Source: a virus. From it: a stretch of DNA of 37,541 nucleotides. The stretch spans positions 1 to 37,541 of IMG/VR virus record IMGVR_UViG_3300042375_000706; one strand, 5' to 3'. The notes under the pieces were generated by a model, which had not been told where the DNA came from, ran no database searches, and saw only the letters and a list, made by a program, of their open reading frames with translations. Numbering within the stretch: position 1 is the first letter of the stretch; the number at the start of each line of letters is the position of its first letter. Positions 2,145-36,263 of the stretch are shown here, one piece after another. Both the position numbers and the translations under genes were made by a program.

Positions 2145-2145
2145 T

Positions 2146-4235: not shown

Positions 4236-4236
4236 G

Positions 4237-5097: not shown

Positions 5098-5106
5098 AAA
5101 TTACGA

Positions 5107-8014: not shown

Positions 8015-8031
8015 GGTAGTAGTTGGTTAGG

Positions 8032-13546: not shown

Positions 13547-16500
13547 TTATTTGGAGAATCGGAAGGCGAGCGCGTCCTTGGTCTTGGACTTGGCTTGCTC
13601 GTAGGCGGATTTGACTTTCTTCACGTCCACCTCGGTGGGGTTGTTGTAGTTGATGAATTGGGTTTTGAGAAGCGCCTTGGTCAGCTTGCCGGACAGCTCG
13701 CGGAAGGTGGCAAGCTGGTCGCCGGTCATCTTCTGCGGCTTGCCCGTGCGCTTGTTCACAAACTCCGCCGTGGTGATGGAGGAAGGGAACCACGCCTTGC
13801 CGGGGTTCTTGTCGCGGAAGCGCAGCAGCATCGCGTCCACCGGGTTGACCGTGTCGGTCCCCATCTCCGTCATGTCGATGATGCGTCCGGCGGCGTTGCC
13901 GGTCTTCGTCACCTCGTCGCCGTAGGGGTCGCGCTTGGCGTTCTTCTGTCCGGCGGGAGCGACCTGATAAAGAACCTCCTGCATGAACGAATCCGACCGC
14001 TCGCGGAAGTTCGCGTCCATCTCGCGGATCGGTTGCTTGATGAGGTTCGGGAAAACCATCGAGAAGCGGGAGGCAAGGAACTGTTGGAACTTCCGGTTAT
14101 CCTTCACGTCCGGCTCGGCGAGGATGTTGGTCCCCAGCGAGATCAGGTCGGAGATCCCCTTCATGAAGCTCTTGTCCTGCGCCTGCGCGGCGAATCCACC
14201 GAGCGCGGCGGCGGCGGCTTGCGAACTGTCGCCCCCTGCGCGGTTGGACCGCTTGACCGACTTCATCAGGTCGATGGTGGCGGCGAGGGTGGTGGCGATC
14301 GGCTCGAACCTGCCGTAGCTGATCCCGAACCGCTCCTTGCCATCCTTGCGGAAGGAAATCCGGTAAGGCCCGACGCCCGAGCGCATCTGCGTCTCGCGCT
14401 CCGCCCGCCCGCGTGGGGTGAACGGCGAGGAGCCGGTGATGATGAACGGCTTGTCCTGATCGTCGTCGTCGCCCTCACCGGCACCCATGGCGGCAAGAAT
14501 CAGCATCAGGGTCGCCCCTTGGAGTTGCTGTCCGACTCGTTCCACGAGTTCAGCATTGCGCCCGTTGGCGTTCCACTTCCAGCTTTTCGTTCCGTCAAGA
14601 TTGTCCTTGCGGGAGTTCTGGTAGGTGCCAAGCAGGATGTCGAAGACCGAGAACGGATTGAGCGTGTGGCGGACGCCCTTGCGGAGGATGTTGAACGGAG
14701 TGCGCTGGAACGGGAAGAACGAGACCCGCACGATGGCGAGTGCCGCCTTGGCGAAGATGTTGTCATGCTCCTGCGCGGCGAACTTGTTGAGGCTGGCAGC
14801 GGCATAGCCGACCACGTCGCCCAAGTCCTTCACTTCGATCTTCTTGCCAGTCGTCGGGTCTTGCTGACTCGGCAGCGGGTTGGAGAAGATGGCGCGGGAC
14901 GCCTTGTTGGCGGCAAGCAGGTAGGACGGACTTCCGGGGGTGTTGACCTCGGACTTGAGGAACGCGGCGAACTCCGGCGTGCCGGGTTTCATCCCCCGCG
15001 CCTTGGCGATGCGGAAAGCGAACGTGCCGACCTCGACGCACGCCATCAGCGTCCGGTTGAAGTCGTCGGTCGCCGCCAGCAAGCGCATCGGGATTCGGAT
15101 GATGTCGCCCTTCTTGCCTGAGATGGAACCGTTGATCCGGTAGCCGCCGCCGCCAAGGATCTTGTCCCAGTCGATTTCATGAGCCAGCACGTCACGGTCG
15201 AACATCGGGTGTTGCGAGATGAACGCGGCCTTGAAGTTGGACATGGCGCGGAGCCATGCGGGCTTGAGGGCTTTGAGGATGTATTTCGACTCGCCAAGCT
15301 GGGCGCTCATCGGGTCTTTGACGATGGCATTCACCGCCAAGTCATACGCCCGCCCGACGGTGACTTCCCATGTCGCCGGGATGATCGCCGTGGCGTTGAC
15401 GAGCATCGTCTGGAGACCGGAGAGCATGTTGGCATAGACCAACTCCGTCGCCTTGTCCACGAAGTCGGCGTCCATGGTGGAAATCATCCGTGCCACCGCG
15501 CCGACATGGTTGATGTCGTTGAGGTCGAATCCGTAGGACTCCACCGATTGCGACGACTCGAAGATGTCCTTCACGTCGGTCCCATACTTGGCGAGGATGG
15601 CGTTGATCTCCGCAACCGCCGCCATCGCCTTGACCTGTTGTCCTGCGTCGAGCGAACCAATCTTGCCGATCGCCCCGGCGAGACCCCGGATGATCTCCAC
15701 GCGCTGCATGATATTGGAGCGGTCTTTCGTGTCGAAGGTGACGCTGTCCATGTTGTCCTTGAAGTCGGGGCGCGACCAATCCGCCTCCATCACGTTGACG
15801 GGCTTCACCTTGGCGACCTTCTTCGGCTTGATGTTCTTGGCGCGGACCTCTTCCGGCAGTCCGAATCCAATCGTCAGGATGCGCTCCACCTCGGCGGCGA
15901 TCTGCTCCGGGGTGAGTTGCTTGCCTGCTCCCAACGGGGCGGATTGCAGCGAGTTGAGTTGCTTCACGATCTCCTCCATGCTCATCCCGGCGGCGACCAT
16001 CGGCGCGATCTTGGCGCGGAGGTCTTCGCGGGCGTCCTTGTTGATCTTCTGCGCCTCTTCGGCGCTCACGTTGAGACGGCGCTTGATGTCCCCAAGGCTC
16101 GCGCCCTGCTGGATCATCTTCAGGACGTTCTGCTGGATTTTCGGGCGGGCCTTTTGCACGTCCTTCATCAGCTTCGAGTTCGCCAGCTTCAGCTTATCGT
16201 TCTCCTTGGTGATGTCGGAGAGCTTGAGGTTGATCTTGGCAAGCTCCGCAGTCACAGAGGCGACGCGGGCATTCGCCGCCTTGGTGATGGCGGCTTTACG
16301 TTCTGACAAGGGCAGGCTGGCAATCGCCTTCTGGATCTTGTCCGATGGCATGTAGATCGCCTCGGTGAGCGCGGCAAGCGCCCGCTCGGCGGGTTTCAAG
16401 TCCCGGTCCCAGCCGATTTGCAGCAAGCGCCCCACGTCACCGCGCATGATGCGGTAGGCGAGCATTCTCGCGCCGTTCTCGGCCTGAAGCGCCTCGTTGT

Positions 16501-19500
16501 TGCCCGCCTGCTCGGTGAGCTGGTTGATGCGGAGTTGCATTGCAACATGGTCCGCCGGGGTGAGTTGGAACGTCTTGTCGGTGGCGGCTCCTGCGAGCTT
16601 CGCGTCGATGTCCGCCGGGTTGTTCACCAGCATCCGCCGTGCTTCCGCCAGATTGTCGGCGTTGGTCTGGATGTCGTTGATCGTGTCGTAATAAGCCGTC
16701 ACCACGTCGAGCTGCTCGCGGTTGGCCGCGCTGCCGAATCCGGCCCGCTCATGCGTCAGGTTCCTGCCGGACGCCTGCTGGTGATCCCTCGCCTCCTCGG
16801 TGAACGCCTGCGGCACGCCACGGGGGAAGGAGTTGGCTTTCGGCAGGGTGGCGGAGCGGAGACTAGGAAACTGATCCTCTTTGCCGGGGTATCTAAGGTC
16901 GTTGATTTCTGCCAAGTCGAGTGCCGCCCGTAAGGTCTGCTCCAGCACGTTGCTATCAAACTTTTCACTGGTGAGTGCAGTTTTGACATTCTGAACCAAA
17001 CGCATAATAGCATCAACAAGAGCATCCCATGACGACTGCGTTTCTCCAGACCGAGTCAGTTTTGGATAAGGGAGCTTTTTAAGAATGGCTTGAAATTCTG
17101 AATTGCTGAACGCCTCCGCAACAAACTCGTGCAGATTTCCAAACCCGTATTCCATGTCGGCTTTCACCGTGTTGTCCGGGTTGTCAAATGTCACATTTCC
17201 CTCGACGTTCTGGAGGTGCTCCCCATTGCCGGTTTTTTCAACCGTGTGGAAAAACAGACGGATCAAATCCTTCATGGGGACCGGAACAGCGTCGTCTTCC
17301 AATGCTTCCCGATAGACGGTGATTGCCTCTTGGCTAGTTTCTGACCCGCCAAGGTGGAGGCTGATTTCTCTAGAGGTGATAGCATGGAGCGTCTCGTGAA
17401 CCAACACAGCCGCCTCCATTTTGGCATCGCTGTCACTACTGACGAATCCCGATCCAATCGAATAGTATGCGCGTGGTCGCCCCGGTTTTTGCCATCCCAT
17501 CCTCACCGGGAAACGTCGAAGAGTTACCAACTTCTGAAAGGTGAGAGCATTTAGCGGGAGCTTGGCTAGTTCCGTTGCGAATGGGTGGTAAAAACTACGT
17601 TTCGGGACAGCCATTAGGGCATCTCTGAGAGATTGCCCGGAGACTTTCACCTTTGGAGTAACGAGGTTATTGATGACCACCCTAACGATTTTCGGCAAGG
17701 CATCAGCCCGGAGCGGAGCGGCGTTCAGTCCAGAAAACTGATCCTCGCCATAGCCATCCAGCATTCTGAGGGCGCGAGGATTGTCGGCGTATTTCACCAA
17801 GACACCTTGAGCGGCGAGCGTGATTTGATCCCCCATCAATACCGGGGAAAGCGCAACGCCATCCGCCTTGCGGCGTTTGATGTATGCCCTCGCATCTTCA
17901 ACGGCAGCTTTGAATGCTGCGGGATCAAGCTCCTTGGCGAGCGCGATAATGTTGGCGGCTGTCTGCGGTGGATTGTTCTTGGTGGCGACGGCGACCGCTC
18001 CATTCAGCTTGGTGCTTGGCGCTACCGTCCACTGGTTTCCGAGTTGCTTTTGGAGATAGGCAACAAGTTCGAGTGAGGAAAATCCCTTCTGGAAATTCTC
18101 TTCGCCTTGGTTTTTGACCCAGAATGATCCCGGCTCGTCAGCGGGGCGCTTGTTCGCGGCGGACTGCACGTTCTGTAAAGTCCTTGCCGAAAAGATTGCC
18201 TGACCGCCGGGTTTCACGATGCGGGCGATGTCAGAGACGATCCCGTTCCTGATATTTAACGGAACGACATTCAGCGCGGAGAAGTTTGTGACCGTGTCGG
18301 CGGATGAGGATGGAACCTTGCCTTGCTCGGTGTAATCCACCGGGGTCTTGCTTGCCCACTTCTCGGGAAACGGCTCCATGGTCGTCACGCTGAAACCGAG
18401 CGAACGCATCACGTCCGCCCCAAGACCAAGCCCTGCGGAGTAATCAACAACCTTGTGACCTTTCGGAATCATTCCTTCCGCCGCTTTGCGGTAGGTGTTG
18501 ACGGTCCCGGCACGCTGCGTGTTCGCGCTTCTGGCGTCAAAATCCGGATTACCATCCTTACGGTTGGCGATGTATTCCCTCCGCTGCTCCTTGCTCATCG
18601 CCTTCCACTCGGGAGAGTCGGCGCGGAGGGGGGCGGAATACAACGTCCCGAATGGTCCCTTGGTGTATCCGTAGGGAGTGGACAAGTCCGCTTTTGCGCG
18701 GACGCTTTCCAATTCGGCGAGTTCCTTTTCAATCGACTCGATCTTGCTCTCAAGCCTTACCCGGAACGAATCAATGGCGTTGAGGTCGTCTTCCCTCTTG
18801 TTTACCGCATCGAATCTGTCTGAAAACTCTTCGCTGGTCTCCCCCTCTTCTCGTTCAAGGTTTTCACGCGCCTCCTGTGCCGCCTCTTGGTCGAATCCGA
18901 GTTTCTCATTCCCAGCGGAATTGCCGTCAGGATATTTCTCCTCGTATCTTTCCATTGCCTTCCTGAGTCCTGCGAGCTGCCGGGTCAGGCGGAGGTATTG
19001 CGGTCCCTTTTGGGATTTCGACTCGAACAGCTTGCCGCCGAAGGTCGGGACTGTGCCGACTCGATCGGTTGTTTCTGGTTCGGCGGGAGGATTCACCCGC
19101 TCCCTTTCCGGAACGGCTGTCAGATTGAACGACCGGATCTGTGTTGCGGATAGCGGGCGGGAGTAATAAATGACGCCGTAGCGTCCGCGCTCGTCCGTCT
19201 CGTCAATCCGAGTGTGATTCTCCGGGGCGGAGTTCGCCAGATCGGTAGGGCGGGCATAGCCGTATTCCTTCACCTTGACGGGCGGGACGAACGGAATCTC
19301 CTCGAACATCTCGTGCTTGGATTCATCGAACACCTTCCGGTAGTCCACCGGGCGCATCCCGTTCTTGTCCTCCACGAGAACCCACCATCCGTTTTCATCC
19401 CAGCGGTGGGCGGCGACATCGTAGGCTTTCCCATCCGCAAGATAGACCAGCGAACCAACCGGAGCGCCTTGTCGCAACCACGAGGGCGGCGAGTGCGGGG

Positions 19501-22500
19501 CGCGGTTGATTTCCGCCTCGATTTGCTGAAACGCCTTCTCTTTCGCCGCGAGTTCATCCATGCGGGTGAACGGGCGCTCGGTCATCGCCTGCAATGATGC
19601 GATGGAAGCGTCGATGGTGTTGTAGCTCTCCTTGAGGTTGTTCAGGGCGCGGGCTTGTCCTCGAAGGTTGTTCTCCATCGAAGCGATGGACAACTTCCCA
19701 AGTGCGACCTTCTCGAACTTTCCTCCTTTGACTGGAATCTTGGCGTAGAAGACGGAAGAAGAAGCCCACGAGGATGGACTCCACTCATGAATCACTTGGA
19801 TTCCGTGGTAGTCGATGACCGCCTTGTTGTTGTCCGCCTGCGTGAGCGACGGGTAAGCGGCGAGGTAGGTTTCCGCTTCCGCACGTTCTGTGAACGTCTT
19901 GCCGTCAATCTTCACCTCGAAGGGTTTTTCACGAGCTTCGGCAATGACTTGGAGCATCTCCTCGGATCTCGCGATCTGATCCTTGTCCCTCTCCTTGCGC
20001 TCCCGCAGTTGCTTGATGTCCTCACGCGCCCGGGCGATTGCTTGGAAGTGGGAATCGCGCTTGCGACTCAGCTTGTCCACGTCGGTCTTGAGCTTGGCGC
20101 GGATCATGATGCGGGGATCGCCCGCAGCGGTGGAAAGCGATTGCTCGAAGTCCGCGACGTTCTCCCCGGTCTCGCCAAGGTCTGCGCCGTCGCCCGTGAG
20201 AACCCGCAAGTCTGAGCCTCCCGCATTCACAAGCATCTCGGTGAAGCGGCTGATGAACTTCACCTTGTTCAGTAGCACCTGCCAGCGGCGAACGTCGTGC
20301 GATCCCTCGGTGTAGTAGCGATACTCGAAAACCGTGTTCCACTGGTTGCCTTGGCGGTGTCCGCGTCCATTGCGTTGCTCGAACTCGCCGGGAGTCCAAG
20401 GGGCATCCAAGTGGTGCATCGCCCGCATTTGCGTTTGGGCATTGACCCCGGTTCCCATGGTCTGCGTGCTGCCGATGGCGAAACGGATCTTCCCTTCCCG
20501 CATGAGGGCGGAAATGTCCTCCTTGGTGATGGTCTTGCCACGGGGGCGAATCACCTTGCGGAGAATGTCGTCCGGGCGCGACGCGATCGTGTCCAGTGAC
20601 ATATTCGAGAACACGGCGATCTCTTCGGGCCGGACGCCTTGGGCGACCAACTTTTCGACCATGTCGCGGACGAGGTTGAACTTGGGGCGACGGCGCTTCT
20701 GTTTGACCGTCTTCCCCTCGGCGTCCTTCACCGTCTCACCCGCATCGTTCTTCACGGCGACCATGGAGTCGGTGTAATCGTTGAATCCCTGCTCCATGAA
20801 GATCATCTGAGTCGATTGATCGTCCTCGATGTAATGCTCGAAGGCATTCTTCAGCATCATGTTCACCTTGCTGTTCGGATCATCCTCCGCGCCCATGAAA
20901 AGCAGGCGGATGTCGAGTGCCGCCTTGGTTCCTTCGCTTTCGAGTTGGATTGGCGTATCCACACCGTTCAGCATCGCTAGTCGCTTACTCTTGCCGTCGA
21001 GGCGCTGGAAGGCTTCATAGCGTTCCTTCACGCTCTCCTTGTGGCGCTTCTGGCGTTCCGTCATCTCCGCCGTGACTGAGCGGATCGTTTTGAACGGGCG
21101 ACCGATGGCATCGGGGGATTTCCCTTCCGTAGTTTCACGGGCGACGAACTCGGGCATGTTTTTCGCCTGCACCACATCGAAGTAGCGTCCGGCGAGGCGG
21201 GCGAGTTCCGGCACGTTGACGAATGAGAGTAGCCGGGTGACGGGTTCGAGCGTTCCGCCCGTCGTCCATTCGGTGTCGGTTACGGATGCGGCGAAGTCGT
21301 TGAACCAGTCATCGAAACCATTGATCCCGACATCCGCCATAGCATCATCCATGACGAATTTCATCATGTTGTAGGCTTCATTCAGGTTGTTCGTCAGCGG
21401 CGTGCCTGTGAATAGGAATACGCCCTTGCCGTTGTTCTTCGCCTTCACGGTGTCGGTGAGAGCGCCAAGCATCCATCCGCGCTCGCTCTCATCCTTGTTG
21501 AGTCCCTTCACTTGCTTGCGGGTGGCGAGTGAGATTTTTTTGAAGATGTGCGCCTCGTCAACCATGATGGCGTCAATTCCAAGATCCTCGAAGAACACAG
21601 CTTTGTCGCCATGGGCTTTCGCCGCCTTATCCTTGATCCGCTTGATGATCCGGTTGCGGGACTTCACGAGATCCTTCGCCGTGTGTGAATCCTTCACATA
21701 CGCCATCTTCTTCCTGAATGCCTTGTCATCGTTCAATTCCTCATCCGTGATGGTCTGACCGAGGGATTCGAGTTCGTCGGCGATCTCGGATTCCAGTTGG
21801 GTGATTTCCTTTTTGGCGATCTGCATCAAGGTCTCTTCGCGGAGCGCAAAGCGGTCGATCAGAGAGTGAGTGACGATCACGGCGTCCCATTCATCCGTGG
21901 CGATTTGGCGCATGGCGTTCTCGCGGACTTCCGGGTTGAGGCTGTTGATGAACAGGAACTTCCCGCCGGGATACGCTGCTTGGAAATCCTTATAGACGGA
22001 TTCCGCATTCGAGTTGTGAGCAAAAAGCAGGGTTTTTCTGAAAACCCCAAGGCGGCGACCTTCGACGGCAAGACCCGCCATGGTGAACGTCTTGCCCGTG
22101 CCGACCTCGTGAGCGCCAACGCCGCGACCGTCCATAATGAACCGCCACACAGCGTCTTTCTGGTGCTGTCTGAAATCGAACTCGGAAGTTCCAAGGGTGA
22201 GCGACAATCCTTCAAAGCGAAGGTGCGAGCCGCTCCGATTGGGGACCACTTCGGAGTTCTTCACGTTGTTGTAGTCAACCCCGAGTTGTCCGGCCCGCGC
22301 CGGGTCCGACCATAGCCATGACGCAAGCTCCTCGCGGATTCCGTCAACCTTGGTGTTGGCAAGCTGGGTTTCGGCGTCGTTGAGATGCTTTACTCCATCG
22401 GAATCGGTATCCCATACCTTGACCGTGGTGCCGTTCATCGCGGCTCCAAAGATTTTCGAGAAACTCAGGCGACGGGTTCCCCATGTCGCCGTGCCGCCCG

Positions 22501-25500
22501 TGCCATCTTCAAGGCGGGCGTTGTTCACTTTGAAATTCCATCCCGACTGAACTTTCGTGAGGTTGAAATCCTTTTCGATGTTTTCCAAGTCTCCGCCTAG
22601 TAGATGGGTGGCGAACTGAAGGTAGTTGGTGCGGGGAATCCATGACGCGCCCATCTGCACCTCAATCTCGAAATACGGGACATCTTTCGGCTGGATCTTT
22701 TCGAGCGCCTCGACGTTGCGCTCCATGTCGAGTCCTTGGGAAAGCGCGTCCTTCGCCTCGTTGAGCTTCCGACGCACGTTTCCGCCAAGGTATTCCTCGC
22801 GTGACTCCCATTCCCCGGTGGGTGTCTGGTAGATTTGGTCGAGCGCCTTGAGCTTGTCGATGACCTCGCTGGCGGGCATTCCTGACAACTCGGCAATGGT
22901 GTCGATGCTGAGAGTCGTGCTTTGGTTGCGCTGGATGGCAAAGGCGTCCTCGATGCTGCCCTTGGCGTCGGTGACAGGACGGCGCATGATGTCCTTGAGG
23001 AGAATGTCGCGGGGGACCATCCCCTTGCCTTCCTTGCGCTCCAGATTCTCCATTATCCGGGACATGGGGTCTTCTGCTTTTGTCAAAGCATCCACCATGA
23101 AGGATTTGGAAATGGTTTTGTGAGTTTTCACATAGGCATCGTATTTCGCCTTGGCGTCGGCACGGATTGTTTCCGTCTCGGAACTTCCTTCGCGCTGCGC
23201 GTCGAGGAGCTTTTGAACGCTATCCCGGAGCCCAAGGAGTTGCTTCAGTTCATCGGTGCGCTTTTCCGTCACCTTCTTGTCGGCGACTCTCCACTTGAAG
23301 ACGGAATCCAACCGCTCCAACTGCTCTCCCCGGACGATATAGAAACCCTCGGGTGTGGATACGTCTCCTTCATTCCAGACCACGCTGTTTTGACCTGCGC
23401 TGGCATTCTTGTTCTGGAATGCGGGCGCGTCGTCTTTCCTTGTGGACTCGGTGAGGATGTCCTTGGGGAGTGATTGTTCAATGCGGGCAAGTGCTTCGGC
23501 GTAGCCGTCCTGACGGTTCACGATCATCCCCGGCTTGCCGCTGGTGGTGCCGTGTCCCCATGTCATTTCTCCCAGCACGTTTTGAGGATTGGCATTCCAA
23601 TACTCGTTCGCATTGAACGTCCGCTCACCGGACCCACGAAGCTGAGTGTTGATCCATCCGTCGTTCTCGATGTCTGCCGATGGCGTTGCCCTCTTTTTGA
23701 GGATAAGAACGTCGGTAACGACCTTAGTTCCTGCGTAGTTGTCAAACGCGCCCGATGGGAAGCGGAATGCTGCCACGAGTTCGGCGCGGCGGGCGAGTTG
23801 GCGGCGGGTGTTCTGCCCCTTCTTGTCCATGGTGCCATTCGACGTGATGCCGATGACCAATCCGCCTGCGCGGGTCTGATCCAGCGCCTTCACAAAGAAG
23901 TAGTCATGGAGGGAGAGACCAAGGCTGTTGTAGCGGGGGTCGCTCGGACCCTCTCGGGCAAACGGCCAATTCCCGATCACAAGGTCATAGAATCCATCTG
24001 CGGTGGCAGACTTCTCGTAACCCATGATGCGGATGTTCGCATCCGGGTAGAGCATCTTCGCCATTCCTCCGACGACGCTATCAAGCTCGATCCCGGTCAG
24101 TGAGCTTTTCGACCGGATGATGTCGGGCATGAGTCCGAAGAACGTCCCGATGCCCATGGATGGCTCAAGGATGCGCCCGCCCTTGAATCCAAGGTGTTCC
24201 ACAATCCGCCAGAGCGCCTGAACGTGCGGCGGGTCCGTGTAGTGAGCGTTGAGGATGGAATCACGAATGCTCTCCCAGCCTTTTTGCCCAAGATGATCGC
24301 GGAGCCATTCGCTCTCGGTCCTGAAATTGTCCTTGGGATTCGGCCTTTCCCATGTCCCCTGAAAGAGTTCCTGCCCAAAGCTGCCCCATCCGATGTAGGC
24401 GGCAAGAATGTTCTGCTCCGCCGGGGTTGGATCGCGGTTTTCAGAGAGAACCGTGTCGTAGGTTTCAAGGGCGAGCTTGTTGCGTGCGAATCGCGCCTTC
24501 GGACCTCCAGCGCCGATGATGCTCTCGGGGTTGGTCAGTCGGTATCCGGCACGAGGTTCTGTTCCAACCACTCCGTTTCCATCTCCGGGTTCGACGGAAT
24601 CAGATCCATCCGCGCTTGGCTCTCCGCCTCGCTCGGTGTCATCCCCGACTCCTCCTTCAGCACCCGTCTCAGACTCAGAACCCGGTCGTGGAGCATTTCC
24701 GCCCACGGTTCCAGAATTTCCGCCTGTTCCAGCGCCTTTGCCATTTTCGGGCAAGACTCCCGGAGCCCCGCCGCTAGGGTCTTTGCCGCCGGACTCGGAA
24801 TCCACGGGGGGTCTTCCAGTTCCAGACTCCAATCCTTCACCTGCTTGCGGACTGTCAGAATCAGTTGAGGTAGGAGGCGCGGTGTTTTCATTGCTACTAA
24901 GGTTGCCATTGGGTGATGTTTTGTCAATTTCAGAATAAGAACTCGCCCAATCGGAGAAGTCGGACAACTCCGGATAGTTCGCCTTTAACATGCTCCACAT
25001 GGCGGCGGAGTAGGGGCGCAACTTGCCATTTCCCGCCTTTTCAAGCGCAATGGCGAGGGCTTCAGGTGTGCGGACGCCCTCATCATAGAGCGTGTCAGCC
25101 ACATTCATGAACGTGGTCCGCTTCTCACGCGGGATACCCTTGGAGCGGTAGAAGTCATCCGGCACGAGCGGAGCGGAGTCGAGACCGTCCACCATGTCGG
25201 AGAACGCATCCTTCAGGGCTTGCTCGCCGGGGGTGAGAGCGGGCTTCGCCGGGGTGGCAGGAATCTCCACAACCGCCTCTTTCTCGCCACGCCCGATCGC
25301 GCCAGTGACGTTGTCTTGGAGGGTTTCGAGCGGGGTGAGCGGCTTGGCGATCGGTTCGACGTAGCTGCGCGGGTTGATATTCTGCTGCGCGTCCTCTTTG
25401 GCTCGCTCCCAGTTCGACCAGTCATCCGGGAATCCGGTTTCCTCGAAATATGCCAAGTCGGCGGTCGCCAGATCGACAACCTGCTGCCATTGCCCCGCCT

Positions 25501-28500
25501 TGATCGCCTTGTTGAGCGCGGTCTTGCGCTTCTTGTATTCCTTTTGGGCGAATGACTCGGGGGCTGCTTCAGGGTCGGATTGACCGGTTGGCGCGGCGGC
25601 TACAGGCGGGTTGATCTGATCCGGCGCAAAGCTGGATTTCGTGCCATCCTCGAACTTTACCGAAACCCTGCCGAAATTCACCCCTGTGACATTGCCGTTC
25701 CGCCCATCAACCGACACGGGCTTACCCGTGTAATTTGAGGCTTCATAGGCATCCTTGGCTTGCTGCTCCTTGGCAGTGAGGTTTCCGGTCAGCTTTCGCA
25801 TCGCTGCGGCTTTTTGCATTCCGGCGGCTTTCCTCATCTGCTCCGCCCTCACTGAATCGGTCTTGGCCCATGAATCTGCGAGTCGAAGGGCGGATTGATA
25901 GTCGGCTTCGATGGATTCCGCTGTGACTCCGTCCGCACTTGTTGCGGGTTTCGCGGATGGTTCTGGCGCAACTGCGGCTGGCGGCGTGGCGACGACCTCA
26001 ATCGTCACCTGATCCAAGAAGAACGCCTTTTTGGGCCTGCCTTCGATGATGAGATTGAACCCGCCGTTCTTCGGGTTGACGACCACGCCATTGTAAGAGG
26101 AGACAATGCCCTCATACCGCACGCCGTCCTTGGTGACGACTACTTGCTGACCTTCGACAAGTGCTGCACCAGCGCCGTTGCCTCCTGTTGGCTCAACCCC
26201 GCCATTGCCACCAGTGCCGCCACCGCTTCCGGGCGGCTTGCCAGTTCCATCACCCTTTTTGCTGGAAGCGGGCTTCTTTGGATCAGCTTTTGGATTTCTT
26301 GGAGCGAATTGCTTGAGGGCGGCGTCGAGGTATTCAATTTCTTGTTGGAGTGCGGGTGAGAGGTTGCCCTTGCGGACAAGGCGCTTGAGTTCGACCAAGA
26401 GCACCTTGAGTTCGTGGTAAAGCGTCTGGGAGATGTCCGTCCAGAGGCGGGCGGCTTCGGTGGCGGACTTGCCGCTCCACCGCTGCTTCATCACACGGAT
26501 GCCTTCGAGCGCCTTGTTGGCGTCCGGCATCACGTCCCACGCGGCGAGTCCGGAGTATTGCGGCATGGCGGCGGACGCGGCCTTGCCTGCGGCGTCCATG
26601 GCGTCCCACGCCTTGCGGTCGGCGGCGGTGGTGCCGGTGTAGAGTCCGCGCACGACCTCTGCCTTGCCCTTGGCGACGAATTCACCCTGCCAGATGGTGT
26701 TGCCGTAGTGCTCCTCGAACCACACGTTGAAGTCGCCGGGGCTTCCCTGCTCTTTCCAGATGGTGACGGCGGAGCGGGTTTGCCCGAGGTGGGAGAGCTC
26801 CTCGTCCAGCACGGTGTTGAAACGGACAATCGCCTGCTCCTCGGTCAACCCGGCGTCGAGCGCCTCTTGGATGATGAGGTCCGGGTTGACGTTGATCTTT
26901 CCGCCCTGCATTTCGCCCCGCGCCCCGTTGTCCACGATGGCGTCGGCGAGTTGCTTGCTTCCCGCCTTGAGTTCCGCGATGCGGGCCTTGGCGTGGGTGA
27001 TGGCGCGGGTGAGGGCGGGAGACTCGATGGCAACAGGCGCGGCGGCAGGCTTCTGTGTAAATCCATCCCACTCGAAAGGATGCGCCATGTTGCTGGCAAC
27101 TTCACGAACGCCATTTCGGGTAACGACAAACTTTCCAAAGTTGTTGTCCACGGATTCCACTACAACCGTTTCTCCGGTTTTTCGGTCAATCAGTAGATCT
27201 CCGGGCTGAAGCACTTGAGAGGCTGCTTGAGTCCTAAGAGACTTGGCTTGTCGCTGATCCATTGGCGGAGTCGCTGCCGGAACTGCTGCGGGCTTTGCTG
27301 CCGGGGCGGCTGCGGGCGCGGCGGCAGGAATCGCTGTCGCACTCATCACCCGGTCCATGTAGGACGCATCCGGGTGTCCGGCGGCGGCTTTACGGGCTTC
27401 CGCCTCGGTCGCGGCGGAGACGGTGATCTTCTTGCCGCTGCTAAACTCAACCTCGAACTGGGGAGTTCCGGGCGTCGCTGCCGGGGTGGCGGGAGTCGAA
27501 AGGGCTTTGGCGCGGGCTTGCGCTTCGTCCATGGTGATCCGGGCGCGGGCGCGGGGGGACGCTGCTTCAACCTGCGCCAAGGCGGCGTCGGTGAGGATGG
27601 GTGCGTTGTTGTGGCCGGGGACCAGCATTTGCGCGGGAACCCCTGCGGCTTCGCGCTCCTTGGGCGACATCTCGGTGAATGACCCCTCTCCCGCCTTGTA
27701 ACCGACGGCTTCAAGCTCGGCGGAGGTGAGATTGTCCATTGGCAACCCGGCGGCGATCTTGAGCACGGCACGGGTGAGCGGAGCACGTCCGGTGGCGACA
27801 CGGGCTTGCGCGACGAGCGCCTCGGCGGCTTTCACGTCGCCGCCGGTGGTCTGCGCCTCATTCAGCGCGGCTTGCGCTTGGGCGAGCGTCTCCGCGTCCG
27901 CCGTTTCCACCCCGACCAGCTCGCGCTCGACGAGCACGCCGTCAGCAACCCCCTCAACGCCCATGTTGGCAGAGGTGAACATCGCGGCACGGGCAACTTC
28001 ATCACTGGTCGCCACCGGAGCTTCCGGGTCGATCGCTTGGAGGGCGGTGTCGATGCGGGATTTCTCCTCTACGGGATCGGCAGGCGTTCCGGATGGCAAC
28101 GCCTTGGAAGCGAGCTTGAGCGCACCACCCGCGCCACCCATGAGACCCATAAGGGCGAGGGTTTGCGGGGCGACCTCCTTGAAGGCATCAACGACGCCCC
28201 CGGCGGACCAATTGGCCTTGATGGCGTTCGGATCCTGGCCTTGGGCGATGGCTTGGGCTTTTTTCTGATCCGCTCCCTGCTCCACCTGCGTCATGGTTTC
28301 GGTGGCAAGCTCGGTGGCAAGCGATCCCGAGCCTGCAACGACCTTGGCCCCGATTGAACCGGCGAACTTCTTGGCGAGACCCTTACCGAGTCCGAAAATG
28401 ATTTGACCAGCCCCCATGGTCACAGCATTGCCGACCGCTTCCGGGCCTGCTTCCCAAAGTGCCGTGTTCTGCGCGATCGGGATCAGCGCGTCATAGGCAG

Positions 28501-30034
28501 ACTGCATCTCCGCCTCATTCATCGGGCGACCGCTCTTCTTCTGCGACTCAGCTTGAAGTTGCTGCCATGACTCGTTGAGGAACGACGCGCCCGCCATGCG
28601 GTAAGCGGCAGTTCCTGACGCCGCCATGCCTGCGGTGACGCCGCCGATGGTTCCACCGATGGATGCTCCAATCGCGGCTCCGGGTGCCGCGCCGACGCCA
28701 GCGGCGGGAGCGCCAATCGCGCCACCAATCGCGCCACCAGCAATCGCTCCGCCTTTCGCGCCAGCCATGGAAGCCGGAATTGCCGCCGCCATCGACCCGA
28801 GCGAGAAACCAAGGCTGCCGCCTGCTTCACGGAACGACTCGCCGACCGATGAGGATGTTCCAGCTGCCTGATTTGCGTCAGTCTTGGCCTGCATCTCCTT
28901 GTTGAACGCATCGGCCTCGGCGAACGCCTTCTTGGCGCTTTCCGAATACTGGTCCGGGCGTTCCATGCCCTCGACCAGTTGGTAAAATGCCGCCGGGGCG
29001 GATGTCCCGAGTCCTTTGACGGCATCCCAGATGCCCGAAACGGTGTCGCCGACGTTGAAGAAATCCTTGGGCGGGGTTTTCCCGTCAGCGTTTGGAGCAC
29101 CTGCTTTTTCCCAATACGCTTTCTCTTTTTCCGCCTCTCCTTGAACCGCCTTGATCGGCGCTTCCGCCTCCACCCGCTTTTGGGCGGCAAGTCCGCGTGC
29201 ATTGGCGATCTCCGCCCGCTCGGCTTGCGCGGCGACCGCTTCCGGCCCGGGCATGCCTGCTGCGAGCTTGGCTTGCAGTTCGGCGTCGCGGCGGGCGGCG
29301 GATTCCTCCACCATGTCCACCTCGCTCCGCTGCGCCTGTGCTGTGGCGACGGTTTGCGCCCGCTGCTCTTGCGCGGTCGGCTGGTTGCGCTGCGCCAGCC
29401 AAGAATCCGGGTCGGTGGACTCGATCTGGTTGGCGCGGGCTTTCGCGTCCCATGACTTTTGCGCCAGCGCGGACTTCTCCGCCTGATACTCGGTGTCAGC
29501 CACCAGCTTCGCCTTGAGTTCGATGTGGCGGGGGTCGGTCTCGGCCAGCATCGAACCTTCCGCCTCGATGGCTTCGCGGTCTTTTTTCGCCAGCCCACGG
29601 GCATGGAACGATGGATCTTTGATGCGTAAATCGGCATCTTCGCTCTCGCGCTTCGCGTCGTTGATGTCGCGGTCCCACACCGACTTGCGGGCGATGCCGC
29701 CAAGCTCCGGGTGATCGAGCAACGACTCGGCGTCATGCTCCTCGGGGATGCCGCGATTCAGGCGGGAAACCTTGCCGTCAACGCCCTTCCAGCTTCCGCC
29801 GGAAGAGGACGAGCGGTTTTCGCTCGCCATCTGGCGCTGGTAGCTTTTCTCCGCGTCGATCGCGCCCTTGAACGCCTTCTGGAAACCCTCATTGTTGACG
29901 AACTGTCGCCACACCGGAACTCCGATGTTGGCGGCGAACCCGCTCTCCTCGCTCGGATCCGCGTCCGTCGCTTCAGATTGAAATCCACGGGAAATATCCG
30001 TGCCTTTTTGACGAAAACCAAGAGAATCAGCCAT
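13547..30034 (-). CDS. Giant polyvalent protein: DarB-like methyltransferase-helicase, second methyltransferase, zincin
   Basis: A single 5495-residue chain. Approximate order: charged helices (1-400); glycine zipper and hydrophobic segments (415-470, 535-580, 623-645); small SH3-like modules near 940-990, 1295-1340 and 1430-1475; N6-adenine methyltransferase with ILEPSMGIGTFFG (about 1952-1965) and NWPF (about 2022); SNF2/DEAH helicase with HEVGTGKT (about 2642), VDEAH (about 2824), FTGTPLTNN (about 2871) and QRNGRGHRQGN (about 3220); coiled coil; class I methyltransferase with VVDYSAGLGLGADV (about 3862); zinc peptidase HETLH (4213-4217); coiled coil (4400-4690); C-terminal part with membrane-type segments. 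The methyltransferase-helicase pair is the DarB anti-restriction plan, and such polyvalent proteins are packaged and injected with the DNA. A short motif repeats at the last domain borders. No Shine-Dalgarno sequence precedes the start. Confidence 0.9.
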   Translation of the reverse strand: MADSLGFRQKGTDISRGFQSEATDADPSEESGFAANIGVPVWRQFVNNEGFQKAFKGAIDAEKSYQRQMASENRSSSSGGSWKGVDGKVSRLNRGIPEEHDAESLLDHPELGGIARKSVWDRDINDAKRESEDADLRIKDPSFHARGLAKKDREAIEAEGSMLAETDPRHIELKAKLVADTEYQAEKSALAQKSWDAKARANQIESTDPDSWLAQRNQPTAQEQRAQTVATAQAQRSEVDMVEESAARRDAELQAKLAAGMPGPEAVAAQAERAEIANARGLAAQKRVEAEAPIKAVQGEAEKEKAYWEKAGAPNADGKTPPKDFFNVGDTVSGIWDAVKGLGTSAPAAFYQLVEGMERPDQYSESAKKAFAEADAFNKEMQAKTDANQAAGTSSSVGESFREAGGSLGFSLGSMAAAIPASMAGAKGGAIAGGAIGGAIGAPAAGVGAAPGAAIGASIGGTIGGVTAGMAASGTAAYRMAGASFLNESWQQLQAESQKKSGRPMNEAEMQSAYDALIPIAQNTALWEAGPEAVGNAVTMGAGQIIFGLGKGLAKKFAGSIGAKVVAGSGSLATELATETMTQVEQGADQKKAQAIAQGQDPNAIKANWSAGGVVDAFKEVAPQTLALMGLMGGAGGALKLASKALPSGTPADPVEEKSRIDTALQAIDPEAPVATSDEVARAAMFTSANMGVEGVADGVLVERELVGVETADAETLAQAQAALNEAQTTGGDVKAAEALVAQARVATGRAPLTRAVLKIAAGLPMDNLTSAELEAVGYKAGEGSFTEMSPKEREAAGVPAQMLVPGHNNAPILTDAALAQVEAASPRARARITMDEAQARAKALSTPATPAATPGTPQFEVEFSSGKKITVSAATEAEARKAAAGHPDASYMDRVMSATAIPAAAPAAAPAAKPAAVPAATPPMDQRQAKSLRTQAASQVLQPGDLLIDRKTGETVVVESVDNNFGKFVVTRNGVREVASNMAHPFEWDGFTQKPAAAPVAIESPALTRAITHAKARIAELKAGSKQLADAIVDNGARGEMQGGKINVNPDLIIQEALDAGLTEEQAIVRFNTVLDEELSHLGQTRSAVTIWKEQGSPGDFNVWFEEHYGNTIWQGEFVAKGKAEVVRGLYTGTTAADRKAWDAMDAAGKAASAAMPQYSGLAAWDVMPDANKALEGIRVMKQRWSGKSATEAARLWTDISQTLYHELKVLLVELKRLVRKGNLSPALQQEIEYLDAALKQFAPRNPKADPKKPASSKKGDGTGKPPGSGGGTGGNGGVEPTGGNGAGAALVEGQQVVVTKDGVRYEGIVSSYNGVVVNPKNGGFNLIIEGRPKKAFFLDQVTIEVVATPPAAVAPEPSAKPATSADGVTAESIEADYQSALRLADSWAKTDSVRAEQMRKAAGMQKAAAMRKLTGNLTAKEQQAKDAYEASNYTGKPVSVDGRNGNVTGVNFGRVSVKFEDGTKSSFAPDQINPPVAAAPTGQSDPEAAPESFAQKEYKKRKTALNKAIKAGQWQQVVDLATADLAYFEETGFPDDWSNWERAKEDAQQNINPRSYVEPIAKPLTPLETLQDNVTGAIGRGEKEAVVEIPATPAKPALTPGEQALKDAFSDMVDGLDSAPLVPDDFYRSKGIPREKRTTFMNVADTLYDEGVRTPEALAIALEKAGNGKLRPYSAAMWSMLKANYPELSDFSDWASSYSEIDKTSPNGNLSSNENTAPPTSTDSDSPQAGEGLESGTGRPPVDSESGGKDPSGGAPGVLPENGKGAGTGGNSGTVGGNAPRPGSESETGAEGGVGDDTERGGEPSADGSDSVEPGDGNGVVGTEPRAGYRLTNPESIIGAGGPKARFARNKLALETYDTVLSENRDPTPAEQNILAAYIGWGSFGQELFQGTWERPNPKDNFRTESEWLRDHLGQKGWESIRDSILNAHYTDPPHVQALWRIVEHLGFKGGRILEPSMGIGTFFGLMPDIIRSKSSLTGIELDSVVGGMAKMLYPDANIRIMGYEKSATADGFYDLVIGNWPFAREGPSDPRYNSLGLSLHDYFFVKALDQTRAGGLVIGITSNGTMDKKGQNTRRQLARRAELVAAFRFPSGAFDNYAGTKVVTDVLILKKRATPSADIENDGWINTQLRGSGERTFNANEYWNANPQNVLGEMTWGHGTTSGKPGMIVNRQDGYAEALARIEQSLPKDILTESTRKDDAPAFQNKNASAGQNSVVWNEGDVSTPEGFYIVRGEQLERLDSVFKWRVADKKVTEKRTDELKQLLGLRDSVQKLLDAQREGSSETETIRADAKAKYDAYVKTHKTISKSFMVDALTKAEDPMSRIMENLERKEGKGMVPRDILLKDIMRRPVTDAKGSIEDAFAIQRNQSTTLSIDTIAELSGMPASEVIDKLKALDQIYQTPTGEWESREEYLGGNVRRKLNEAKDALSQGLDMERNVEALEKIQPKDVPYFEIEVQMGASWIPRTNYLQFATHLLGGDLENIEKDFNLTKVQSGWNFKVNNARLEDGTGGTATWGTRRLSFSKIFGAAMNGTTVKVWDTDSDGVKHLNDAETQLANTKVDGIREELASWLWSDPARAGQLGVDYNNVKNSEVVPNRSGSHLRFEGLSLTLGTSEFDFRQHQKDAVWRFIMDGRGVGAHEVGTGKTFTMAGLAVEGRRLGVFRKTLLFAHNSNAESVYKDFQAAYPGGKFLFINSLNPEVRENAMRQIATDEWDAVIVTHSLIDRFALREETLMQIAKKEITQLESEIADELESLGQTITDEELNDDKAFRKKMAYVKDSHTAKDLVKSRNRIIKRIKDKAAKAHGDKAVFFEDLGIDAIMVDEAHIFKKISLATRKQVKGLNKDESERGWMLGALTDTVKAKNNGKGVFLFTGTPLTNNLNEAYNMMKFVMDDAMADVGINGFDDWFNDFAASVTDTEWTTGGTLEPVTRLLSFVNVPELARLAGRYFDVVQAKNMPEFVARETTEGKSPDAIGRPFKTIRSVTAEMTERQKRHKESVKERYEAFQRLDGKSKRLAMLNGVDTPIQLESEGTKAALDIRLLFMGAEDDPNSKVNMMLKNAFEHYIEDDQSTQMIFMEQGFNDYTDSMVAVKNDAGETVKDAEGKTVKQKRRRPKFNLVRDMVEKLVAQGVRPEEIAVFSNMSLDTIASRPDDILRKVIRPRGKTITKEDISALMREGKIRFAIGSTQTMGTGVNAQTQMRAMHHLDAPWTPGEFEQRNGRGHRQGNQWNTVFEYRYYTEGSHDVRRWQVLLNKVKFISRFTEMLVNAGGSDLRVLTGDGADLGETGENVADFEQSLSTAAGDPRIMIRAKLKTDVDKLSRKRDSHFQAIARAREDIKQLRERKERDKDQIARSEEMLQVIAEAREKPFEVKIDGKTFTERAEAETYLAAYPSLTQADNNKAVIDYHGIQVIHEWSPSSWASSSVFYAKIPVKGGKFEKVALGKLSIASMENNLRGQARALNNLKESYNTIDASIASLQAMTERPFTRMDELAAKEKAFQQIEAEINRAPHSPPSWLRQGAPVGSLVYLADGKAYDVAAHRWDENGWWVLVEDKNGMRPVDYRKVFDESKHEMFEEIPFVPPVKVKEYGYARPTDLANSAPENHTRIDETDERGRYGVIYYSRPLSATQIRSFNLTAVPERERVNPPAEPETTDRVGTVPTFGGKLFESKSQKGPQYLRLTRQLAGLRKAMERYEEKYPDGNSAGNEKLGFDQEAAQEARENLEREEGETSEEFSDRFDAVNKREDDLNAIDSFRVRLESKIESIEKELAELESVRAKADLSTPYGYTKGPFGTLYSAPLRADSPEWKAMSKEQRREYIANRKDGNPDFDARSANTQRAGTVNTYRKAAEGMIPKGHKVVDYSAGLGLGADVMRSLGFSVTTMEPFPEKWASKTPVDYTEQGKVPSSSADTVTNFSALNVVPLNIRNGIVSDIARIVKPGGQAIFSARTLQNVQSAANKRPADEPGSFWVKNQGEENFQKGFSSLELVAYLQKQLGNQWTVAPSTKLNGAVAVATKNNPPQTAANIIALAKELDPAAFKAAVEDARAYIKRRKADGVALSPVLMGDQITLAAQGVLVKYADNPRALRMLDGYGEDQFSGLNAAPLRADALPKIVRVVINNLVTPKVKVSGQSLRDALMAVPKRSFYHPFATELAKLPLNALTFQKLVTLRRFPVRMGWQKPGRPRAYYSIGSGFVSSDSDAKMEAAVLVHETLHAITSREISLHLGGSETSQEAITVYREALEDDAVPVPMKDLIRLFFHTVEKTGNGEHLQNVEGNVTFDNPDNTVKADMEYGFGNLHEFVAEAFSNSEFQAILKKLPYPKLTRSGETQSSWDALVDAIMRLVQNVKTALTSEKFDSNVLEQTLRAALDLAEINDLRYPGKEDQFPSLRSATLPKANSFPRGVPQAFTEEARDHQQASGRNLTHERAGFGSAANREQLDVVTAYYDTINDIQTNADNLAEARRMLVNNPADIDAKLAGAATDKTFQLTPADHVAMQLRINQLTEQAGNNEALQAENGARMLAYRIMRGDVGRLLQIGWDRDLKPAERALAALTEAIYMPSDKIQKAIASLPLSERKAAITKAANARVASVTAELAKINLKLSDITKENDKLKLANSKLMKDVQKARPKIQQNVLKMIQQGASLGDIKRRLNVSAEEAQKINKDAREDLRAKIAPMVAAGMSMEEIVKQLNSLQSAPLGAGKQLTPEQIAAEVERILTIGFGLPEEVRAKNIKPKKVAKVKPVNVMEADWSRPDFKDNMDSVTFDTKDRSNIMQRVEIIRGLAGAIGKIGSLDAGQQVKAMAAVAEINAILAKYGTDVKDIFESSQSVESYGFDLNDINHVGAVARMISTMDADFVDKATELVYANMLSGLQTMLVNATAIIPATWEVTVGRAYDLAVNAIVKDPMSAQLGESKYILKALKPAWLRAMSNFKAAFISQHPMFDRDVLAHEIDWDKILGGGGYRINGSISGKKGDIIRIPMRLLAATDDFNRTLMACVEVGTFAFRIAKARGMKPGTPEFAAFLKSEVNTPGSPSYLLAANKASRAIFSNPLPSQQDPTTGKKIEVKDLGDVVGYAAASLNKFAAQEHDNIFAKAALAIVRVSFFPFQRTPFNILRKGVRHTLNPFSVFDILLGTYQNSRKDNLDGTKSWKWNANGRNAELVERVGQQLQGATLMLILAAMGAGEGDDDDQDKPFIITGSSPFTPRGRAERETQMRSGVGPYRISFRKDGKERFGISYGRFEPIATTLAATIDLMKSVKRSNRAGGDSSQAAAAALGGFAAQAQDKSFMKGISDLISLGTNILAEPDVKDNRKFQQFLASRFSMVFPNLIKQPIREMDANFRERSDSFMQEVLYQVAPAGQKNAKRDPYGDEVTKTGNAAGRIIDMTEMGTDTVNPVDAMLLRFRDKNPGKAWFPSSITTAEFVNKRTGKPQKMTGDQLATFRELSGKLTKALLKTQFINYNNPTEVDVKKVKSAYEQAKSKTKDALAFRFSK

Positions 30035-30061: not shown

Positions 30062-32005
30062 TTAACGACGCGCAAATTTAGGTTTTGCCTTGGCGGAAGG
30101 TTCCGGGGTGGGCTGGATCGCCGGGATTTCACGCGCCTTGCCGTCCTTGCTTTCTTGGGCAGTGGCGGGGCGGCTGGAGACGACGCGGGAAGAGGTCGGC
30201 GCGGTGTTTTTAGTGTCCTCCTTGGTCAACTGCTCTCCGGTCTTGGCGTTGACCCCCCACGCGGCGGCAGTGTGTTCAGGTGTTCCGGGCTTGAAAGAGC
30301 GGTTCACGTCATCCATCGTCGGCTTTTTAGCCTCTTCCGCTTGACGCTTGAACCCTTCCGCCTGCGCGGCACGGGTGCTGGCATAAGCCTCATCGGAAAA
30401 AGCGCCGCCCTTGGCAATGGGGCTCTGATATTTTGGCTCGGGCTGGCTGGCGGGGCCGCGTGGAACCGGTGTTTGGGTGGATTCTCTGGTGGGCGCAATC
30501 CCCATCGAGCGAAGCGCGTTGTTCGCCGCGTCATTTTGGCCCGGAGTATTGTTCTGCGCCGGGATGGCCCGCGACTGGTTGATGCTCTGGCGCATCGCCG
30601 AATCATTTCCGCGCTGCTGCATGGTCGCATCCGCAGACTTCGGCAACGAGTCGCCGGGTTTGAATCCGAACGGAAGACCCGTCAGGCGGTTGACGCGGGT
30701 GAGTCCCGCGCCGTTGTCGCTCTTGATCGCCGGGTCCATGGGAACCCTGCTTGTAACCTTGCCCGCTGCATCCTTCACATCTCCCATCGGCTGTGCCATC
30801 ACGGGCGCTCCGGTGGGGGCGGCTTGAGGAGCACCCGTCGGGCCTTGGTAGCCCGTTGGCGATTGTTGCGCTGCTGCTGGCGCGGTTCCCGGCGCTGGCG
30901 CGGGCGACTGACCTGCTGCTGGCGCTCCCTGCGCGGAGGCTTGCGCCACTGGTTTGCCTGTCACTTTCGCAACCTCGGCGGCACGGGCGGAAGCGGCGGC
31001 GTCTTGCCCTGCCTTGTGACTTGCGTTGGAATCGTCAAGTTGCTTTTTGTCTTTCGCCGCATTGACATCTGATTTGAAAGGCGAGGAAACCCAATTCGCA
31101 GCACCAACCACAGCGTCTTCAGCCATTCGAGCCGTTCCCCATAACGCTCTGGATACAGGCGACGAGTCATCCTTCACCGGAGGAGTGGGGGCGTTGGTCG
31201 GCTTTGACGGGGTCGATGACCGGCTAGCTGCCTCATCTTTCGTTATCACTCCTTGCGCCAGCAATTCCTCAGTTGATGCGCCTGATCGTTTTGCCACGGG
31301 AGTCTTGGCTGCGGGTGCTGCTGCGGAATCCGTCTCAGCCTTGTTCTTTTTCTCCAATGCGGCGGCGGCTGCATCACCTCCTGATCCATTGTCGGCGGTA
31401 TTAGCCCAATCATTCGCGCTGTTCTCCGTCAGCGCCGCAGCACGGGCTTCGTCAGATCCGGGTGCAAAGCCAGCGGAAATCGGCTTGCCGGGACCGTTGC
31501 TCGCCGTGCTTTGATCCGGTTTGCGGGTTCCGACTGGTGTTGTCGGCGCGGTGTATCCGTCATCGTCATCGGCCTTCGGAGCGCCTCCCCTCGGTCCCCT
31601 CGGATTGGCTCCGCTCGGACCTGTCGGGTTGGACCCCCTTGAGCTTTTCCTGTCATCAGACTCCGTCGTCGCCGATGGGTTTGTGACGGTTTTCATCGCT
31701 GGCATGGTTACTGTTTCCGGGCGTAAATCCTTGCCCATCTGCCACATCTTCTCTTTGCCCATCGCCTTCTGCTCGCTCGGGGAAAGCGCTCCTTCCGGCG
31801 AAGCCCGCTTGGCGTATTTGTCTTTGATGGATCCGTCAACATTCGCCCACAAGGTCTCAAAAGCCGCCGTCACCTCTTCGGGAGACTTCCCCTTCATCTT
31901 ACCCTTGGTGTATGTTCCCTTTTTTGAAATCGCGCCTCCGCGTGAAAGGTAGGAACTCAGCGCGGCAGCCTTGCCCGCAGCGAATGGAACTTGTGTCTCA
32001 GCCAT
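30062..32005 (-). CDS. Large low-complexity protein upstream of the giant gene
   Basis: A 647-residue protein from the ATG at 32005; a TTG at 32041 would add 12 residues but belongs to a -35 element. Residues about 5-95 look ordered and basic (AAGKAAALSSYLSRGGAISK, KKGTYTKGKMKGKSPEEV, SPSEQKAMGKEKMWQMGKDL). The rest is mostly disordered Pro/Ala/Gly/Thr-rich sequence (for example GPSGANPRGPRGGAPKADDD, PAPAPGTAPAAAQQSPTGYQ), with short predicted-helix islands and a basic end (KAKPKFARR). It stops 27 bp before the giant gene, so the two are co-transcribed and may be partners, perhaps both internal virion or ejection proteins. No family is recognised. Confidence 0.7.
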   Translation of the reverse strand: MAETQVPFAAGKAAALSSYLSRGGAISKKGTYTKGKMKGKSPEEVTAAFETLWANVDGSIKDKYAKRASPEGALSPSEQKAMGKEKMWQMGKDLRPETVTMPAMKTVTNPSATTESDDRKSSRGSNPTGPSGANPRGPRGGAPKADDDDGYTAPTTPVGTRKPDQSTASNGPGKPISAGFAPGSDEARAAALTENSANDWANTADNGSGGDAAAAALEKKNKAETDSAAAPAAKTPVAKRSGASTEELLAQGVITKDEAASRSSTPSKPTNAPTPPVKDDSSPVSRALWGTARMAEDAVVGAANWVSSPFKSDVNAAKDKKQLDDSNASHKAGQDAAASARAAEVAKVTGKPVAQASAQGAPAAGQSPAPAPGTAPAAAQQSPTGYQGPTGAPQAAPTGAPVMAQPMGDVKDAAGKVTSRVPMDPAIKSDNGAGLTRVNRLTGLPFGFKPGDSLPKSADATMQQRGNDSAMRQSINQSRAIPAQNNTPGQNDAANNALRSMGIAPTRESTQTPVPRGPASQPEPKYQSPIAKGGAFSDEAYASTRAAQAEGFKRQAEEAKKPTMDDVNRSFKPGTPEHTAAAWGVNAKTGEQLTKEDTKNTAPTSSRVVSSRPATAQESKDGKAREIPAIQPTPEPSAKAKPKFARR

Positions 32006-32041
32006 GCGCGAGGAATTAGGGCTTTCCTCACGTTCTGTCAA
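32006..32041 (-). promoter_or_regulatory. Leaderless-type promoter before the 647-residue protein gene
   Basis: On the minus strand TTGACA (32041-32036), 17 bp, TAATTC (32018-32013), 7 bp, then the ATG at 32005. CAGAACGTGAG, a variant of the recurring motif, overlaps the -35. With this geometry the transcript would begin at or one base before the start codon. Confidence 0.5.
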
Positions 32042-33375: not shown

Positions 33376-33410
33376 CTTGATGTTCTGGAAAGTCTCCGTC
33401 AAGAAAATGT
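33376..33410 (-). promoter_or_regulatory. Extended CAGAACAT motif between large terminase and the 149-residue gene
   Basis: Minus strand: TTGACG, then TTTCCAGAACATCAAG, overlapping the end of the large terminase gene. The extended upstream part (TTC..TGACG..GA) is shared with the copies near 9121, 35491 and 36740, which suggests one functional element of about 35 bp. Confidence 0.45.
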
Positions 33411-36195: not shown

Positions 36196-36201
36196 GCGTT
36201 G

Positions 36202-36229
36202 AAGATAGGACCATTGCCGGCGAAAGCAA
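36202..36229 (-). promoter_or_regulatory. Leaderless-type promoter of the recombinase
   Basis: Minus strand TTGCTT (36229-36224), 16 bp, TATCTT (36207-36202), 6 bp, then ATG at 36195. An operator-like palindrome lies 35 bases further upstream. Confidence 0.4.
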
Positions 36230-36263
36230 CCGGGAAACTTCAAAATCCCGGTTAAAATGACAG

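Follow-up and report, generated by a model that had tools for sequence, protein, structure and literature searches.

Giant phage polyvalent proteins appear to exchange a methylase-translocase engine between fixed ends

The window analysed here, the whole 37,541-base stretch of an IMG/VR record classed as linear, carries from right to left the genes for a serine recombinase and the terminase large subunit (TerL), small genes, a gene for a 659-residue low-complexity protein, a single giant gene and the gene for an SU10-type portal protein (Table 1). Past the portal follow a scaffold-like protein, the major head protein and gp80-type fibre proteins. With TerL upstream and the portal directly downstream, the giant gene, whose product is called W below, occupies the packaging-gene setting expected of a DarB-type polyvalent protein. 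Searches by tblastn against 50,697 phage records recovered no match to the portal and head proteins (E 1e-5) and distant matches only to the terminase. The window therefore represents an uncultivated podovirus-like lineage. The N-terminal ~90 residues of the 659-residue companion protein are conserved and also found ahead of the giant gene in relatives; by eye, they have an HMG-box-like look. A tRNA-Met gene (35325-35398) adjoins the serine recombinase gene (35521-36243), both upstream of TerL, and this pairing may be a sign of integration. The recombinase has a homolog of 49% identity in one relative (G013). At the left end of the window lie a frame of TGTDTS repeats (1635-2267) and a collagen-like fibre protein (3-1211) whose IST-type domain is long and repetitive.

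Table 1. Position of W, its parts and the neighbouring genes in the window. aa: residue numbers in W.
Feature	Position	Strand	Evidence or remark
Giant polyvalent protein W, 5495 aa, single ORF	13547..30034	-	ATG start, 5495 codons, no internal stop
N-terminal chassis, aa 1-846	27497..30034	-	40-64% identity in G001, G003, G007, G009, L029
Glycine/alanine-rich zipper-like stretch, aa ~391-480	28595..28810 (aa ~409-480)	-	Low complexity, inside N-terminal chassis
EExxH domain, aa 1035-1250	26285..26932	-	Here DEELSH; invariant EExxH in alignment
Last conserved block before engine, aa 1482-1719	24878..25591	-	47% identity in G003
Engine/payload slot, aa ~1720-4390	16865..24877	-	No blastp match to G003 middle (E <= 0.01), flanks homologous
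Adenine N6-type methylase	23615..24529	-	LPD36-like GAGG near start; motif IV GNWPF at aa 2021
SNF2-type translocase	20255..22177	-	GTGKT aa 2645, DEAH aa 2825, QRNGRGHRQGN aa 3220
DarA_C-like short match, aa 3609-3642	19109..19210	-	24.7 bits vs curated cut-off 27
Second class I methylase, aa 3814-4004	18023..18595	-	Methyltransf_23 E 2e-6
Gluzincin-like peptidase	17075..17437	-	HETLH aa 4213; EFVAEAFS aa 4303
C-terminal chassis, aa 4398-5495	13550..16843	-	50-57% identity in G003/G007; 32-33% in G012/G013
Portal protein (SU10-type)	11081..13294	-	Pfam E 2e-19; directly downstream of giant gene
Terminase large subunit	33399..35174	-	
Major head protein	6488..8014	-	
Companion protein, 659 aa, mostly low complexity	30062..32041	-	Directly upstream of giant gene

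The stop-free frame of 16.5 kb was already described in the initial annotation, and relatives with the same order of blocks bear it out. The block order of W is repeated in G007 within one frame of 7210 residues, both ends of W sit in one 4889-residue frame of G003, and in G001 the N-terminal part is joined to the DarB core as in W. Because these relatives carry matching blocks and joins, W is not a chimaeric artefact.

The core of W matched PHROG_10089 (“DarB-like antirestriction”) with E-values of 2e-257 and 5e-176 from aa ~1701 to 3520, and Pfam SNF2 and Helicase_C also matched. According to Pfam and the motifs, the SNF2 ATPase lies C-terminal of the methylase, as in DarB-type proteins. In an alignment with eight relatives, the SAM site LEPSMGIGTF, GNWPF, GTGKT, DEAH and QRNGRGHRQGN of W were all intact. 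These matches agree with the DarB-type N6-adenine methylase and SNF2 helicase named in the initial annotation. Motif IV reads NWPF in W, G001 and phage USP_18, NFPF in G007 and NPPF in the remaining aligned relatives, so that W departs from the NPP(Y/F) of DarB-type methylases. Adenine methylases of the KsgA/Erm type have the motif NLPY; a non-proline second residue therefore need not mean a loss of activity. Profile searches recovered the DarB methylase, SNF2 and the second methylase, and left LPD36, LPD38 and a lytic transglycosylase unmatched. For LPD36 (consensus GXG(G/A/S)), a GAGG is visible before the methylase with no Pfam match for the domain; an LPD38-type C-terminal domain had been suspected and found no Pfam support; the lytic transglycosylase domain, an N-terminal feature of Bcep22-like giants, gave no Pfam, PHROG or NCBIfam match in either half of W.

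The second class I methyltransferase, which had likewise been predicted, was detected at the Pfam level. Its relatives in other phages form part of large proteins whose genes lie near those for portal or head, and it resembles Roseobacter phage CRP-3 gp36 and Mycobacterium phage Myrna gp97, annotated there as tape measure. The predicted HExxH peptidase was recognised by motif as HETLH, and EFVAEAFS contains a plausible third metal ligand that would complete a zincin set. The HExxH is missing from G003 and G007. A further domain has an invariant EExxH where HExxH would be expected in W, G001, G003, G007, G009 and L029, and reads like an altered HExxH; it could be a zincin that has lost activity or a metal site of another kind. 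The glycine zippers of the initial annotation correspond to the glycine-rich stretch of the N-terminal end, in a region conserved in eight relatives and with hydropathy under the transmembrane threshold. A membrane-type C-terminus had also been proposed and was not borne out: no 19-residue window of W reached a Kyte-Doolittle mean of 1.6, hydropathy gave no transmembrane segment, and the C-terminal structure model was too poor for use. Structure prediction by segments, suggested as a check, was uninformative, AlphaFold models of the two ends (from 5 and 9 sequences) having mean pLDDT values of 46 and 61 and no Foldseek match at E <= 0.001. Sequence searches of solved structures with both ends and both methylases yielded nothing convincing.

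Giant DarB-like proteins are known from cultured phages, including BcepIL02 gp70 (4667 aa), Atu_ph08 gp21 (4877 aa) and the USP_18 protein (4947 aa). In 2021, Pavtok gp27 (5007 aa) was described as the longest phage protein then known (PMC8402733), and JC1 gp69, a homologous giant of 4515 aa, was found in virions by mass spectrometry with 51 unique peptides (PMC9144972). Because this class of ~4,500-5,550 residues is established in cultured phages, the size and content of W alone are not new. W also sets no record, since BKO1-TP3 gp55 (5553 aa), the G007 protein (7210 aa) and a plasmid polyvalent protein of 12,242 aa, published by Iyer et al. 2017 (PMC5512222), are all longer. The G007 protein, a single frame on a 38.4-kb contig (IMGVR_UViG_3300005582_000033, L030:7902-20000 and L031:1-9531), also exceeds the Pavtok protein. 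The initial annotation was right that W is more than twice as long as P1 DarB, but the length is not exceptional when set against the fitting comparison, the giant DarB-like class represented by BcepIL02, Pavtok and BKO1-TP3.

P1 DarB has the same methylase and SNF2 plan as W, whereas it is a protein of about 250 kDa with the partners DarA, Hdf, Ulx and DdrA/B, none of which was named in the window, itself a fragment. DarB is located in the P1 head (PMC9024508) and protects DNA from type I restriction (PMC9024508, PMC5512222). The Bcep22-like and related giants (BcepIL02 gp70, JC1 gp69, Pavtok gp27 and Atu_ph08 gp21) resemble W in their ~4,500-5,000 residues and in the combination of DarB methylase and SNF2, but their ends have no detectable relation to those of W, no lytic transglycosylase was found in W, and the genes of Bcep22-like giants lie elsewhere in the morphogenesis module, not between terminase and portal. 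The giant of Pseudomonas phage vB_PaeM_USP_18 has the closest engine among cultured phages, with GNWPF in both proteins, whereas its ends are not detectably related and its HExxH sites are other ones. All belong to the general class of polyvalent proteins, for which Iyer et al. 2017 describe methylase-helicase dyads with SNF2 and, rarely, Strawberry-notch helicases (PMC5512222).

Searching IMG/VR with both ends of W, which we call the chassis, uncovered a set of relatives, and the N-terminal chassis was also present on one 5-kb contig of a Prosthecobacter MAG. Beyond that MAG, 195 family genomes gave one very weak match to the N-terminal chassis, and the C-terminal chassis had no match in the genome-collection scan. 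Neither chassis end had a tblastn match at E 0.1 among the 50,697 phage records, and chassis HMMs gave no significant match to BcepIL02, Pavtok, Atu08, Mwe07, VvAW1 or USP18. G003 has aa 7-837, 1042-1119, 1372-1474, 1482-1719 and 4439-5495 of W in common, with nothing between the last two blocks; its ends are 54% (N-terminal) and 50% (C-terminal) identical to those of W. The ends of G007 are 55% and 57% identical, and this protein carries in addition a zeta-toxin-type domain (Pfam E 8e-27) and ART-PolyVal (E 5e-12). In G009, the N-terminal end is followed by a ResIII-type helicase and then a methylase, in reversed order. G012 (L057) and G013 (L054) retain the C-terminal end at 32-33% identity with no recognised methylase or helicase, indicating that an engine is not obligatory; G012 carries ART-PolyVal and DUF7178, and therefore the slot can hold other cargo. 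A smaller protein of 2713 aa (G010, L034:5857-13995) has only the glycine-rich core of the N-terminal chassis in common with W, at 70-74% identity. It also matches internal-virion-protein and endolysin PHROGs, which hints at a part for this core in the virion.

In chassis relatives with that region available, the giant gene adjoins the portal gene. Portal identities to W were 71% for G003, 59% for G007 and 44% for G013, which is the order of the chassis identities for the distant G013, and head-protein identities likewise drop with distance. Both chassis ends track the capsid genes, and the centre does not. GC at third codon positions (GC3) rises from 0.70 upstream to 0.86 in the C-terminal chassis of W, the best single change point falling at codon 4391; the level reached is that of the portal (0.89) and TerL (0.88) genes, and the C-terminal ends of G003 and G007 have a like trend.

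Between these ends, the middle differs in kind. The slot of G003 is occupied by a methylase and a Strawberry-notch helicase. The W engine is ~39-41% identical to that of USP_18 (39% over aa 1833-3585), a phage with unrelated ends, and only 29% identical to the G007 engine despite ends at 55-57%. In the engine tree, W and G001 were sister to USP18 (support 100/100), and a clade of the W, G001 and G007 engines was rejected (cost of 191 log-likelihood units, AU p 1.7e-4). The link between the W and USP18 engines is firm in this tree, and the exact place of G007 is unsure because of its long branch. By these sequence comparisons, the history of the W engine differs from that of its chassis. Among the records tested, Helicase_C_4 (Strawberry notch) exceeded its cut-off only in G003 and phage BS-TP4, SNF2 occurred in a giant only in W, G007 and phage BKO1-TP3, and none had both helicase types.

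BS-TP4 and BKO1-TP3 are cultured Bacteroides phages, the former having turned up through the G003 engine and the latter through the W engine. As in W, their giant gene lies one position upstream of the portal gene, and as in the lineage of W, an SNF2 and a Strawberry-notch engine are swapped between homologous ends; unlike these features, their chassis is not detectably related to that of W. The giants of BKO1-TP3 and BS-TP4 (5391 aa) share 80% identity across aa 71-2454 and 62% across the ~1240 C-terminal residues; the portals are 95% identical, whereas the engines (~1850 and ~1700 residues) had no similarity (best E 0.30). BS-TP4 and its IMG/VR sister L079 resolve the joints at the DNA level. 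Their sequences are 96-100% identical over the ~400 bases before the left joint, fall to ~40% past it, where unrelated engines of ~1,700 residues follow, and return to 92-98% (~95%) from the right joint on. At the DNA level, the L079 engine shares 85% identity with that of BKO1-TP3. Sharp joints between near-identical flanks therefore indicate replacement by recombination and not gradual divergence. A survey of 45 loci (IMG/VR loci with a complete Bacteroides-type left flank plus BKO1-TP3 and BS-TP4, some being near-copies) gave SNF2 in 35, Strawberry notch in nine, both in none, and neither in one, whose contig stops soon after the flank. The flank tree implies at least two changes of engine type on starred branches, and parsimony counts five; a single Strawberry-notch clade was rejected.

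What is new here, as read from the alignments, is the combination of fixed ends with an engine exchanged between them, in two unrelated chassis. The available portion of Iyer et al. 2017 (PMC5512222) contains no description of engine-for-engine exchange inside one conserved chassis. In the literature searched, only that article joins polyvalent proteins, Strawberry notch and phage, and engine exchange may have been noticed elsewhere. Phages seem, from these comparisons, to trade the motor of a protein that is probably carried into the cell. We consider it quite likely that such proteins have a dedicated engine slot, in which whole methylase-translocase engines of different helicase families are swapped by recombination, with sharp joints to the conserved packaging/ejection ends on either side; this would happen in unrelated lineages and switch antirestriction while the delivery part is kept. 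The giant itself is probably a virion-carried polyvalent protein consisting of a fixed chassis and an exchangeable engine. Its packaging is suggested by the gene order and by the relatives of the engine; the chassis itself shows no detectable similarity to any protein with a proven place in virions. The chassis parts, ~850 residues at the N-terminus and ~1100 at the C-terminus, belong to the phage lineage and most likely serve packaging and ejection. The slot would hold a methylase and dsDNA-translocase dyad that enters with the genome, moves along the dsDNA as it comes in and, in the manner proposed for DarB, modifies it or shields it from restriction, and the second methylase and the zincin may be further cargo or processing parts. 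Within one lineage, the whole engine is replaced by recombination, and DarB/SNF2 and Strawberry-notch types occur at one address in proteins that are otherwise homologous. The sequences themselves show the domains, the chassis and the exchange with its sharp joints, whereas packaging, ejection and DNA protection are inferred. Two translocase families alternate, and each brings its own methylase; this fits a slot function of “methylase plus dsDNA translocase” and supports the dyad as the working unit. The initial annotation had described W as a capsid-carried defence kit with probable membrane passage. The terminase/portal placement and the detection of JC1 gp69 in virions (PMC9144972) make the capsid-carried kit the best current functional reading, whereas hydropathy lent the membrane passage no support.

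Three other explanations were weighed. Phage methylases can also act during replication, which would allow the giant to be made late and to work inside the cell that makes it, for instance as an epigenetic or anti-defence factor acting on new DNA, instead of being carried in virions. This is unlikely, given that the giant gene adjoins the portal gene in the chassis relatives with that side available and that the JC1 homologue was detected in virions (PMC9144972). A quite unlikely alternative is an ejection motor, in which the chassis holds an SF2 translocase in the envelope of the cell while the engine pulls the genome in, methylation being secondary. Two helicase families alternating in one slot do suggest that a dsDNA translocase is demanded there, and short-tailed phages are known to eject proteins that form a passage for the entering DNA (PMC8402733); however, a methylase accompanied both engine types in the cases examined, G012 and G013 have no recognised engine, and hydropathy gave no clear membrane anchor. 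Finally, it is highly improbable that ordinary slow divergence of DarB-like proteins, with a middle evolving faster than the ends and no replacement, explains the pattern: the methylase-SF2 plan common to all engines and the DarB engines at 29% identity in both W and G007 would fit it, but SNF2 and Strawberry-notch engines are mutually exclusive, the W engine is nearer to that of a phage with an unrelated chassis than to that of G007, and the near-identity of BS-TP4 and L079 DNA right up to the joints already contradicts it in the Bacteroides case.

The division into chassis and engine allows the carrier part to be told apart from the active part in the largest phage proteins, whose workings are almost unstudied, from sequence alone. 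Under the slot model, engines should be transferable between carriers, the delivered engine should decide which restriction systems the phage evades, and the two ends should be enough for packaging. Since BKO1-TP3 and BS-TP4 are cultured and have one engine type each, these predictions are directly testable.

The window also contains short elements upstream of genes. A CAGAACATCAAC element found upstream of some genes was enriched in the window, yet it was absent from the relatives and was discarded. Likewise absent from the relatives, CAGAACATCAA(C/G) occurs at 8031, 13304 and 33376, ~9-17 bases before the starts of the major head protein, the portal and a 149-aa gene, and its matches with up to two mismatches numbered 14 in the window against 2.6 expected. 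An obvious Shine-Dalgarno sequence is missing from most genes of the window. The head protein gene (start at 8014) is preceded by an A/C-rich leader of the AACCAACYAACCACYAYY-ATG type that has no Shine-Dalgarno sequence, and such a leader was also found in G003, G007 and G013.
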